Shown here one piece after another: positions 1-5,585 of a stretch of 5,699 nt of DNA. Every line of letters starts with the position of its first letter. Position 1 is the stretch's first letter. The stretch lies in the NCBI GenBank assembly GCA_022562855.1, contig JADFON010000144.1, forward strand, positions 1 to 5,699, in the 5' to 3' direction. A program made the translations under genes and the position numbers. The notes under the pieces were generated by a model that saw only the letters and a list, made by a program, of their open reading frames with translations, was not told the origin of the DNA and ran no database searches. The stretch is from Candidatus Zhuqueibacterota bacterium. GTDB taxonomy: Bacteria > SM23-31.

Positions 1-962
1 CCCAACAAACCTTCCCAAACCAAAGGATCGTAAGCTCCTTGATCTTGAAGTCCCTGGTAACTGAATCCTCCAAACTGCCTAAAGATAGGTCTGCCTTTAT
101 AGATTTCAACACCATCAAAAATTCGGTCACCATGGGCAATATACATTCCGGCGCCAGCGTCAATAACCGCCTTGGCAAAAGATTCCTGCCACTCATACAT
201 ATCTCCGGCTTTTTTATGACCATTTTCGCCGATCCCATCGGCATCCTCCTGGTCAATTTGAAAATGCTGGTAATAGATGACAAAATCTGCATTTTGACTT
301 GCAGATTTAACCGCAGCGATATTACGGTCCCAATCTTCATCCCAACCTGTCCAAACTCCATTTACACCTGGATTTGATTCCTTCGCTAAAACAACATCTC
401 TTTCATCCCGTGAGGTGGTTGCAGCAATAAGTGCTATTTTCATTCCTTTGACTTCAATAATTGCTGCGCGTGTTGCTTCTTCCAGATTATTTCCAGTTCC
501 TGCATGAGTTACACCATACTTTTTGGCAGCATCTATAGTCGCTAGTATCCCACAATTTCCTAAATCCCAAGCATGGTTATTTGACAAAGATTGTAGATTG
601 AAATTCATGGACGAGAGGAATTCCATAACATTTTCATGCACGGCATGGGGCCCACTTGTGTTACCTGGTCTATCACTTCCCAGCGCAGGTTCTCCTAACA
701 TCACCTGATAATCTTCCGGAAGATCACAGTTGTTATCAACAGTCATTTAAAAATTTGTAAATCCAATAACGGCAGATTCTATAATCGGTCTCAAACTGAA
801 AAAAGGATCGCTCAAGTGTTTGTCAGGATGCACTTTTATCAATGACTGACCAACAATAACCAAGTTGAGAGAAGGAGTATTTGAATCATTACATCCAAAC
901 GTAACAAGTAGACTTATCAAAAATACTATTTGTGCAATATGAAAATCTCTAAATATTTTCAT
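1..962 (-). pseudogene. CapA-family (PGA_cap metallophosphatase-like) lipoprotein gene, interrupted by an in-frame stop and cut by the window edge
   Basis: Translation starts at the ATG at 962-960, reads 71 codons, meets TAA at 749-747, then continues in the same frame for 248 open codons to the window edge. The first part has a hydrophobic signal segment ending at Cys24 (TFGC, a loose lipobox), then VIVGQS at about 36-40 in the place of the usual GDxML strand. The second part carries SLSNNHAWDLG, the typical NNHAxDxG motif, then VIYYQHFQ, IAHGDR and VEIYKGRPIF, all in CapA order. CapA-like proteins are metallophosphatase-fold proteins linked to poly-gamma-glutamate or surface-polymer work, but this member's substrate is unknown. 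The join reads GFTNF-stop-MTVDNN, where relatives have an [N][L/F]E motif, so GAA to TAA is the simplest event. An ATG directly follows the stop, so it could be called as two CDSs (747-962 and a partial one up to 746). No good ribosome site precedes that ATG. A sequencing error is also possible. Confidence 0.8.
744..749 (-). other. In-frame TAA followed directly by ATG inside the CapA-like gene
   Basis: On the minus strand the bases read ttt TAA ATG act, and all four codons are in the frame that encodes CapA-family sequence on both sides. The TAA falls where the family normally has the Glu of an Asn-Leu/Phe-Glu motif, and one base change (GAA to TAA) would explain it. The adjacent ATG could permit restart of translation, but no purine-rich Shine-Dalgarno is seen before it. 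A restarted product would lack both the lipoprotein signal and the first strand of the domain. Confidence 0.85.
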
Positions 963-1043: not shown

Positions 1044-1898
1044 TTATCGGATATCTCCTCCGGACTTCGCTGCGACCACTCTATTTCGCAGCACACCGAC
1101 GCCTTCAACCTCGATTTCAACTATATCGCCGGGTTTCATGGCTTTCGTGCTTCCCGGTGTACCGGTGAATATCACGTCTCCCGGCATCAGTGTGAAGTAC
1201 CGGCTCACATAGCTGACGATCGCATCGACGTCGAAAATAAGGTCTTTCGAGCTCTCTGATTGCACCACCTCACCGTTCAGGCGGGTCTGGACCAGGAGGT
1301 CGTTGTAGTTAAGACCACTGACAATCGCGGGGCCGATAGGTCCAAAGGTATCCGATGCTTTGGCCCGGAGCCACTGCAAATCGTTCCGCTGCCAGGTGCG
1401 CTCGCTTACGTCGTTGCCCGCAGTGACACCGAAAATGTAATCCGGAGCATCGGCGATCGAGACATTTTGTGCCTTTTTTCCGATAACGATCACCAGTTCG
1501 CCTTCGTAATGCAGGTTTTCGGAGTCTGCCGGGATCACGATCTCCTCCTCATGGGCGATGAGCGAGGTGGGGTACTTCGCGAACAATCCCGGGTATTCGG
1601 ATGCCGGACTGTTGCCCAAGTGGCTCCTATAATTCAATCCGACCGCAATTACCTTCGAGGGCTCGCAGGGGATCAAGAGCCGGACCTCAGCCAACCGCAC
1701 ATTCCTGCCCGTCGGTCGCGGCGAAGCAAAGAGATCTCCGTCGAGCTCGCGGATGATCTCGCCGTCAAGAATCCCATACGAGTCCCGTCCTTCATAGGCA
1801 TATCGAACGTATTTGGTGATCCCATCCTGCGCCAGGGCCATGCTGCCCGTAAAAAGCAAGCCCATCATGACCAATGCTGCCTGGTATATCATTCTCAT
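1044..1898 (-). CDS. Exported fumarylacetoacetate hydrolase (FAH) family protein
   Basis: This is a 284-residue protein with a complete FAH domain behind a Sec signal peptide. Family members are divalent-metal enzymes that hydrolyse, decarboxylate or isomerise beta-keto acid or acylpyruvate-like substrates. The actual substrate here cannot be read from sequence. Visible motifs are GLNYRSH (87-93), HYEGEL (130-135) with the expected metal ligands Glu132 and Glu134, NDVSER (162-167) with Asp163, the lysine in RAKASDTFGPIGP (Lys180), and GTPGS (246-250). An N-terminal FAH_N-like part covers about 28-80. Residues 1-24 form a signal peptide with a hydrophobic core and ALA before Gln24. The ATG at 1898 is chosen over the upstream in-frame ATG at 1943 because AGGAGG lies 8 nt before it and the signal peptide then starts properly. 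It follows the M28 peptidase gene by 63 bp. The gene is clearly more GC-rich than its neighbours. Export is odd, because this family is normally cytoplasmic. Confidence 0.9.
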   Translation of the reverse strand: MRMIYQAALVMMGLLFTGSMALAQDGITKYVRYAYEGRDSYGILDGEIIRELDGDLFASPRPTGRNVRLAEVRLLIPCEPSKVIAVGLNYRSHLGNSPASEYPGLFAKYPTSLIAHEEEIVIPADSENLHYEGELVIVIGKKAQNVSIADAPDYIFGVTAGNDVSERTWQRNDLQWLRAKASDTFGPIGPAIVSGLNYNDLLVQTRLNGEVVQSESSKDLIFDVDAIVSYVSRYFTLMPGDVIFTGTPGSTKAMKPGDIVEIEVEGVGVLRNRVVAAKSGGDIR

Positions 1899-1906
1899 TT
1901 CCCTAT

Positions 1907-1912
1907 CCTCCT
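1907..1912 (-). promoter_or_regulatory. Strong Shine-Dalgarno AGGAGG deciding the FAH-family start
   Basis: The minus strand reads AAAAAGGAGGATAGGGAA directly before the ATG at 1898, with 8 nt between AGGAGG and the start codon. This is the best ribosome binding site in the window. It fixes the start downstream of the longer possible frame that begins at 1943. The other genes have weak sites or none. Confidence 0.8.
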
Positions 1913-1961
1913 TTTTCATCCTCTTTACAGGGATGCGGTACAAAAATTATTTTACAATTTA

Positions 1962-3479
1962 TTATTTTTTTCGGGGCATTTTTTCGTCCATCATTGCTGA
2001 GAGATACACAAAACTCGCCATGATCACCGCGTTTTTCATCAGATCCTCCTGAACAAGGTTATCGTAAAAGTCCAGGTTCGTGTGTCCTGTGCCCTGTCCA
2101 ATTCTGTCCTGGAGGAACTGAAAAGCAGGCAGTCCTGCCCTGTCAAATGGGATATGGTCTGTACTGCCTACACTTCTTATGCTTACGGTGGTCATCCCAA
2201 GGTCATTAAATAAACTTGTCCATTTTGTAAATATTTGTCTTACAAATTCGTTTCCCTGCAAATAAATACCCCTGTATTGACCTTTATCGTAATCCTGGTT
2301 GTAATAGACCGAAAATTTGTTATAGGCGGGTTTTATCCCGGTTTGTGGGTCGCCAAAATATTTTTTCACATAGTTACTTGAGCCGCGCAGTCCATCTTCT
2401 TCGCTGCTCCATAAAGCAAACCGGATCGTACGGCGGGGTTTGGCGTCAATTGCTTTTAATATTCTCATTGCTTCAAACATGACCGAACAACCTGAAGCGT
2501 TGTCTGTCGCTCCCGGACTGGTATGCCATGAATCAAAATGAGAGCCGAGCATTACAATTTCATCCCTTAAATCGGGGTCCGTTCCGGGTATTTCTCCGAG
2601 TACATTATTTACTTGTGTTGCATTTCCAATATTGTTGCGTATCTCAACTTCAAGACTGACCGGTATTCCCCGTTTGATAATGCGGTACATCCTGTTATAT
2701 TGTTCGGGCAGAACAGTTATCATGGGGATAGAATTGACCATACCTTCGCGTGACCACCCGCTTTGGTTGGCTCCGGGTCTGGCAAAAGTCCTTACAACCC
2801 CGAGTCTTCCTCCCCTGCTCTCAATTACCAGGGCGGCGCCCTCAGATGTCAGGAAATCAAGACGCGCTACAGATGAAACCTGGTTTGGATTTGCAACCCG
2901 GGGGCTGCTTTGAGCAGGTGTTGGAAATACAGGGTCACGCAGGTCGTTCAGGTTTTCTTCAGTGCGGCGGTTTCTAATTATCGGAACAGTTGGATCTATC
3001 ATTAAAAGTGGAGATATTAAGACAATTTTATTCCTGAGCTGTCCTTTATATTTGGCAAGATCCTGTCTGCTGTTAATTTCGGCGATCAAAACCTCACCTG
3101 TGATCTTGCCATTGGTTCCGGGTGTATAGGCTAACGGGAATCCCACAATTGGATAATAGCCGGGTTCCAGCATATGAATTGATGTGTATTCATTGTCCCA
3201 ACTCACCCCATGATCCAATATCGGTTCAATAATAGTGTTTTCCAGTCCAATTTCTTCCATTTTTGCTTTTGCCCATATCTGAGCTTTTTTCATTCCAAGA
3301 GACCCGACCAACCGGTTTCCGTGAACATCGGTCATATAGCTTACAATGTCCATGACCTGTGACCTTTGGAAACCTTCTTCACGAATTTGCGCGATCACAT
3401 CAAGATCAGATTTTTCCTGGGCGATAATTGGCGAACTCAATAAGCCCGCTAACAAAAACAGCACATAAATTTTTCTCAT
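1962..3479 (-). CDS. Secreted M28-family zinc metallopeptidase (aminopeptidase/carboxypeptidase Q-like)
   Basis: This is a 505-residue exopeptidase of the M28 clan, expected to trim N- or C-terminal residues from peptides outside the cytoplasm using two zinc ions. A signal peptide spans about 1-21 (hydrophobic core, then IIAQ before EK). Residues of about 25-120 form a helical pro-region. A PA-like insert lies in about 120-290, and the catalytic domain occupies about 290-495. Zinc-site motifs are GSHFDSW (His314), GATDNASG (Asp326), the glutamate pair in WSSEEDG (Glu360/Glu361), the YNQDYD region (Asp396 is a candidate ligand) and TGHTNLDFYDN (His466). STDHIPFDRAGLPA (439-452) is also typical of the family. 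The start at 3479 is preferred to the in-frame ATG at 3506 because it puts the lysine/arginine-hydrophobic signal at the N terminus. No clear Shine-Dalgarno is visible. All expected catalytic residues are present, so it should be active. The FAH gene lies 63 bp downstream. Aminopeptidase and carboxypeptidase specificity cannot be separated from this sequence alone. Confidence 0.93.
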   Translation of the reverse strand: MRKIYVLFLLAGLLSSPIIAQEKSDLDVIAQIREEGFQRSQVMDIVSYMTDVHGNRLVGSLGMKKAQIWAKAKMEEIGLENTIIEPILDHGVSWDNEYTSIHMLEPGYYPIVGFPLAYTPGTNGKITGEVLIAEINSRQDLAKYKGQLRNKIVLISPLLMIDPTVPIIRNRRTEENLNDLRDPVFPTPAQSSPRVANPNQVSSVARLDFLTSEGAALVIESRGGRLGVVRTFARPGANQSGWSREGMVNSIPMITVLPEQYNRMYRIIKRGIPVSLEVEIRNNIGNATQVNNVLGEIPGTDPDLRDEIVMLGSHFDSWHTSPGATDNASGCSVMFEAMRILKAIDAKPRRTIRFALWSSEEDGLRGSSNYVKKYFGDPQTGIKPAYNKFSVYYNQDYDKGQYRGIYLQGNEFVRQIFTKWTSLFNDLGMTTVSIRSVGSTDHIPFDRAGLPAFQFLQDRIGQGTGHTNLDFYDNLVQEDLMKNAVIMASFVYLSAMMDEKMPRKK

Positions 3480-3589
3480 AATTTTTACCCGTTTATTTGA
3501 ATACAAATTACTGAAAACAAGTTATTTTAAAGTTGTCCAAAATCTTATAGTGCAGAACATCTATACCAACCATAGCTTTTCTATCCTTC

Positions 3590-3915: not shown

Positions 3916-4332
3916 TTACAATATTTTTATTGTGTTTTCTTTGTTTATTTTGAGGGTTTGTCCATTGCGCAGGTTTTGGAAGTCTTTTTCGGATATTGTC
4001 AGGATAGGGATCGGTTTTTTGTACATTTCGTCGGCAACGATCGATGCAAGCGCTAAGAAGTGATCTTTTTTTGTTGTTATAATTGCTGTCGGTGCTTTGC
4101 CGACGCGTATTGATTCGAGCAAGATAGCTGTGGTGGTGCTTGATCCTATTGTAAAGGGGATAGCCAGTATTTTGTTTGCCGCTATTTTTCCGGAGAGAGG
4201 GTGGCGTCTATCGATTATTTCACCTGTGTACTGGTCGTAACCTCCCCAAAAGCTGAGTGGTTGGTCGCTTATCAGGAGTTCGCCTTCAGATTCTCCCGGG
4301 ATAACCGGGTGTCCCTGTATTAGTTTTCCCAT
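3916..4332 (-). CDS. Aconitase X small subunit (DUF126 swivel domain)
   Basis: This 138-residue protein matches the swivelling domain of aconitase X, which closes over the catalytic large subunit and supplies active-site residues. Family signatures are LSFWGGYDQYTGEIID (26-41) followed by RRHPLSG (42-48), then PFTIGSSTTT (59-68) with the conserved serine loop, then GKAPTAII (78-85). The length is normal for a stand-alone subunit. Its ATG lies inside the 3' end of the large-subunit gene, with a 13-bp overlap in a different frame, so translational coupling and a one-to-one complex are likely. A separate small subunit marks this as the two-subunit type rather than the fused single-chain type. 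Known activities of the family are cis-3-hydroxy-L-proline dehydratase in bacteria and phosphomevalonate dehydratase in archaea. The window gives no decisive hint to either. Confidence 0.93.
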   Translation of the reverse strand: MGKLIQGHPVIPGESEGELLISDQPLSFWGGYDQYTGEIIDRRHPLSGKIAANKILAIPFTIGSSTTTAILLESIRVGKAPTAIITTKKDHFLALASIVADEMYKKPIPILTISEKDFQNLRNGQTLKINKENTIKIL

Positions 4333-5585
4333 ATTGTTTCGTCTGTTATTATTTTGCCTTTTATTGCTGAAATCACGCAGTCTTTTAGCTGCCCAAAGGC
4401 TACTTCTGTTCCAAGCAGTCCCGGTGAGTAGTAGGCAAATTTAGCTGAGTTTGTCATGAGCGTTTTTATGTTTTTGGGTATCATTGGGGATGTGAGGATA
4501 CAGGTATCTACGGTCAGTTTACCGCCGAAATTTTTCAGTGTTTGTATGTATCCTTTTTTGTCTGCTTTATCTCTCACTTCCCTGCTGCAGGATACTACGA
4601 ATATTGTATCCGGATGGCATTTTTGCTTTTCAATTAACGGGTTGAGTTTTTTGAATTCTTCTATGGAGAAGTGAGGACTTCCGAGTGCTATTATGTCCGG
4701 TTTATTATTTTTTGTCGTTGTCAGTTCGTTTTTTGCGTTTTTTATTTCGGTCATGGTTATTTCTTTTGATTCATCCGGCTTTTTGCCTTGAAAGGCTTCT
4801 TCGATCGTCTGCGCTTCGGGTGTTATGCCGATTATATGAAACATGGCGATGGCGCCTGCGGATGCTCCTCCGGCACACAGGGCTTTTAGCTGGTCTTCTG
4901 TCGGTTTAACACTGAATCCGTCTATAACCGGAATTTTGTCGATTACATTTTTACCGAGATAATATCCAAGCACGGAGTAGAAGGCGTCGTTTTCCTGAAG
5001 CTTGGCTGAAATATTTTTTAATGTATACAGTATGTTGCCTGCTCTGTTTTCTGTGAGATGGAGTCCGACAGCCGGAACCCGCCCGGTTATTGCCGCACAG
5101 ATATCGAGTAAATCAGGGTATCTCTCTGTTCGCGCTCCTATTACCGAGTTTGCAAATGCTATTGCGTTGGATTCTCCCCATGCTATCTGCTGCCCGAATT
5201 CCGGTCTGTATTGTGTCTGATAGGGGGCGCAGGTCCATGTAGTTATACATCCCATGTTTTGGTAAGCTACCATTTGACGGTAGGATTTGTCCGCCCAATC
5301 GGAAGGAACATCCCAATCTTTCAGTCCGCTTTTGTCGACTCCGCTTACGTTGAGCGTTGAGGGTACTTTTACTTTTGCACCAAGTTTTACCAGTCTTTCC
5401 GCATATTCAAGGGTTGCATCTCCCATGAAAAGTGAGCTGTCTATGTGCGCGGCTGTAATGTCCATCATGTTTTCCGCCTGGTAGACCTCCGCCATTCGTT
5501 TCATGATGGACATTGCCATTCGCGCGGCAGGACCATGTTCTCCCGCGATGAGCGCTTTGTCGTATTCGGTTAGTTTTAGCGGCAT
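4320..5585 (-). CDS. Aconitase X large (catalytic, Fe-S) subunit
   Basis: This 421-residue protein belongs to the DUF521/aconitase X catalytic family, cytoplasmic Fe-S hydro-lyases. It begins with the usual N terminus (LTEYDKALIAGEHG, 4-18), so the ATG at 5585 is accepted although no Shine-Dalgarno is seen. Conserved blocks are AAHIDSSLF (45-53), TTWTCAPYQ (115-123), WGESNAIAFANSVIGARTER (136-155), GLHLTENRAG (174-183), GSPHFSIEE (302-310) and TNSAKFAYYSPGLLG (378-392). Cys119, Cys333 (in VVSCSRE) and Cys362 (in VDTCIL) are the expected cluster cysteines, all present, so activity is likely. The small subunit overlaps its 3' end. In bacteria the characterised reaction is dehydration of cis-3-hydroxy-L-proline to Delta1-pyrroline-2-carboxylate. 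In archaea a homologous complex dehydrates phosphomevalonate. No partner gene of either pathway is visible here, so the substrate is left open. Confidence 0.95.
   Translation of the reverse strand: MPLKLTEYDKALIAGEHGPAARMAMSIMKRMAEVYQAENMMDITAAHIDSSLFMGDATLEYAERLVKLGAKVKVPSTLNVSGVDKSGLKDWDVPSDWADKSYRQMVAYQNMGCITTWTCAPYQTQYRPEFGQQIAWGESNAIAFANSVIGARTERYPDLLDICAAITGRVPAVGLHLTENRAGNILYTLKNISAKLQENDAFYSVLGYYLGKNVIDKIPVIDGFSVKPTEDQLKALCAGGASAGAIAMFHIIGITPEAQTIEEAFQGKKPDESKEITMTEIKNAKNELTTTKNNKPDIIALGSPHFSIEEFKKLNPLIEKQKCHPDTIFVVSCSREVRDKADKKGYIQTLKNFGGKLTVDTCILTSPMIPKNIKTLMTNSAKFAYYSPGLLGTEVAFGQLKDCVISAIKGKIITDETIWEN

Follow-up and report, generated by a model that had tools for sequence, protein, structure and literature searches.

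The contig analysed here (the window: one complete contig of 5699 bases, belonging to a draft genome of 491 contigs that derives from environmental DNA and is ~80% complete) raises the question of whether the CapA-family reading at its left end is one gene split by a stop codon and, if so, whether that stop is a recent lesion, an error in the consensus or a junction at which translation starts again. A family search, alignments with homologues and a structure comparison all support what the earlier note had claimed, namely that a single nonsense codon splits one CapA-family gene in frame.

A single in-frame stop codon in a CapA-family gene

Read on the minus strand, a stretch of 71 open codons begins with an ATG at 962–960; it encodes a hydrophobic leader, the motif GQSLIK and the residues FTNF, and is ended by TAA at 749–747 (747–962 with the stop included). 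A second ATG (746–744, minus strand) abuts the TAA, and from there 248 codons (744 bases; 3–746, minus strand) are open down to base 3, where the reading is ended by the contig edge. Re-examination of the minus strand confirmed this layout of 71 codons, TAA and 248 open codons in one frame throughout, the TAA at codon 72 being the sole stop within a reading of 320 codons. Given the base composition, 248 codons would stay open behind a random stop with a probability of ~2e-7. The CapA-family gene is the last visible member of a leftward row formed by an M28 peptidase, an FAA hydrolase and CapA, and it runs off the contig end; going by its nearest homologue (L032, from a Woeseia MAG, 409 aa), ~80 C-terminal codons lie beyond the end and may carry further lesions. 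A search of the same genome for the missing 3' end, using a full-length homologue, found only the window locus.

Homologues read through the stop site

The read-through translation, with X at the stop, matched the PGA_cap family (PF09587) over residues 40–298 with 115.6 bits against a cut-off of 27. The downstream piece alone scored 111.8 bits, and the PF09587 search with the 71-residue upstream piece alone gave no significant match. Judged by sequence, then, the upstream part adds modestly to the family score, and it is the alignment with homologues that joins both pieces: GQSLIK and FTNF of the upstream piece align with GQSLIK and FTNFE of rhizobial homologues. The comparison set comprised 98 related loci from plasmids, from members of the window's phylum (represented by six genomes) and from GTDB genomes. 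Single-sequence scans of genome contigs and viral contigs yielded no matches, and the GTDB homologues were recovered by an alignment-based scan.

In all 98 loci, a single open frame for the PGA_cap family runs across the stop site, so that intact homologues span the position as one gene rather than two; homologues with an ordinary boundary between two proteins at this site, which would have spoken against a split gene, were not found among them. The stop column holds Glu in 94 of the 95 homologues with a residue there, bearing out the proposal that a conserved glutamate had been hit. It is the Glu of the N-[LF]-E motif that TAA replaces, and the encoded product lacks this PGA_cap residue. Downstream of the stop, the NNHxxD motif and the later His/Glu motifs are retained (N128, N129, H130, D133, H233, H277 and E286), as are the near-invariant residues of this part (NNH, D133, G155, G157, H233, E286 and G298). 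The broken gene is derived from the PGA_cap family (CapA/PgsA-like), with which it has the NNHAxD, GxG, His and Glu motifs in common; it differs from the usual member in belonging to a subgroup in which GQ replaces GD at the first motif.

The nearest homologue, L032, is intact, is 48–54% identical (54% over residues 12–325) and reads FTNFEM across the site equivalent to the stop. Since Glu is followed by Met there, the ATG after the TAA is a Met codon that was inherited, not a start that has newly arisen. This homologue is gammaproteobacterial and lies outside the window's phylum, in which the other PGA_cap proteins that were aligned belong to the GD type; as far as sequence affinity goes, the closeness of window 3–962 to L032 suggests horizontal transfer.

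The lipoprotein anchor that had been proposed for the protein is only plausible from its sequence. A hydrophobic N-terminus followed by Cys is indeed present both here (LVTFGC) and in L032 (LLTACA), but the lipobox of the broken gene, TFGC, is not canonical, having Thr at −3 and Phe at −2.

The glutamate of the stop column corresponds to a metal ligand of MslH

The nearest solved structure to the AlphaFold2 model of intact L032 (mean pLDDT 80.9) was that of MslH (Z 42, rmsd 2.3–2.4, 330 residues), and the next matches were calcineurin-like phosphatases such as YmdB, with Z of 17 and below. MslH is a lasso peptide C-terminal Trp epimerase (PDB 8gq9) whose metal is held by Glu44, Asn87, His259 and His261, and its Glu44Ala mutant has lost activity (PMC10406935). 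When a rhizobial member of the family was aligned with MslH, the Glu of the stop column fell on Glu44.

The L032 model has strands at residues 31–42 and 66–71 ahead of the Glu at 72. The 71-residue product would therefore be a stub of the fold that breaks off where the second core strand ends; a product of restart would miss the first two core strands and one metal ligand. With the L032 model matching MslH and the Glu placed directly behind that second strand, enzyme activity is not expected of either piece.

The likeness to MslH concerns the fold. The catalytic pairs of MslH (Asp11/His295 and His88/Asp91) and its metal site form a set that is incomplete in the window protein, where Asp11 is replaced by Gln and where, as in L032, the equivalent of His261 appears to be Gln. 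The score against NF038314, the model for MslH-type epimerases, was 68.3 bits and missed the equivalog cut-off of 700. An MslH-like fold is predicted for the intact enzyme, and epimerase chemistry should not be assumed.

A probable fresh pseudogene and its alternatives

A real and recent nonsense mutation in one ordinary PGA_cap gene is, in our judgement, the probable explanation. Loss of an essential metal-ligand Glu to one in-frame nonsense codon would have inactivated the gene, translation ending after 71 residues, just past the second strand of a calcineurin-like core that is predicted from the model of the intact homologue. The metal site would be formed by neither piece, and the rest of the frame would still be open because the change is recent, which would make the locus a newly formed pseudogene, at any rate in the strain that contributes most to the consensus. 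In keeping with recency, the conserved residues are retained and most departures from the family recur in intact L032, and there is thus no sign of long decay. An older decay was considered and rejected, as changed conserved residues are not in excess over those of L032. Besides the stop, there is a Val at residue 65 (window 768–770), seven codons upstream, at a position held by Asp in L032 and in 90 of 95 homologues; this Val is the only other hint of relaxed constraint, a weak one and too little to prove decay. Ordinary bacterial pseudogenes with a single nonsense codon likewise have one in-frame stop, a frame that is otherwise open and intact homologues elsewhere; the only difference here is that the stop happens to hit an essential residue.

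The earlier note had named both a recent lesion and a sequencing error. The absence of excess decay relative to L032 accords with the former; the latter, a consensus error of sequencing or assembly in a metagenome-assembled contig with the true gene intact, we regard as possible but doubtful. Such an error would sit well with a contig of only 5.7 kb from a draft in 491 contigs that is 80% complete, with a TAA within 750 bases of the contig end and with the undamaged state of the remaining frame. On the other hand, none of 39 matches in the same genome (28 to ABC transporters and 11 to SDR proteins) has an in-frame stop, and the contig's other four genes are undamaged; errors are therefore not widespread in the consensus. 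The same counts bear on the proposal that TAA codes for an amino acid, whether in this organism generally or only here. The frame is open on either side of the TAA, as such decoding would require, but TAA closes the window's four other genes at their expected ends and in-frame stops are absent from the 39 matches; moreover, the known cases of recoding, selenocysteine and pyrrolysine, use TGA and TAG rather than TAA. Recoding was rejected as highly improbable.

TAA–ATG abutments are common between coupled genes, which might suggest a normal boundary between two separate genes here; with one open frame across the site in every one of the 98 homologous loci, the probability of a natural boundary is close to nil, and this reading was ruled out. 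The abutment also makes coupled restart possible in principle, and the earlier note had allowed for a downstream piece made in this way. That such a piece is produced and fulfils a separate function appears unlikely to us, even though the 248 codons stay open and retain the conserved residues of that part. The Glu-Met of L032 indicates that the Met behind the stop is inherited, and no clear ribosome-binding site lies in the 30 bases that lead up to the second ATG, whereas the first ATG (962–960) is preceded by GGATGGGAA. A split of this kind occurs in none of the 98 related loci, and the restart product would lack core strands 1 and 2 together with the metal-ligand Glu (L032 model; PMC10406935). 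The second ATG is hence a possible restart site that lacks support. It is very unlikely that stop-and-restart yields two pieces of which the downstream one, devoid of the metal site, serves as a non-catalytic binding or regulatory protein.

The predicted 248-residue 'CapA' is best annotated as a fragment or pseudogene and not as a short cytoplasmic protein. Beyond annotation the significance is slight, the gene being an ordinary broken gene. If the stop is real, this lineage would have lost a PGA_cap enzyme, secreted or anchored, not long ago; if it is not, the locus illustrates why stops in metagenome-derived draft genomes deserve a check.

Genomic context

The M28 peptidase gene (window 1962–3506) lies beside the GQ-type PGA_cap gene. 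Other genes of this type also often have peptidases or peptide transporters as neighbours (L033, 3011–5029; L036, 840–2717; L041, 940–2733; and L012, L023, L024 and L025). The kinds of neighbour include, besides the M28 peptidase of the window, an S15 X-Pro dipeptidyl peptidase, a gamma-glutamyltranspeptidase, a peptide ABC transporter ATPase and pepT. These neighbourhoods give a hint that the GQ subgroup may be at work in peptide breakdown.

The FAA hydrolase gene (window 1044–1943) has a GC3 of 0.67, compared with 0.43–0.45 in the other intact genes, and was possibly acquired from elsewhere; its N-terminus resembles a signal peptide, which is unusual for the family. Further along the window (3916–5585), two overlapping genes, one for the swivel domain and one for the large subunit, encode aconitase X; the best NCBIfam match is cis-3-hydroxy-L-proline dehydratase, whose model describes one fused protein.
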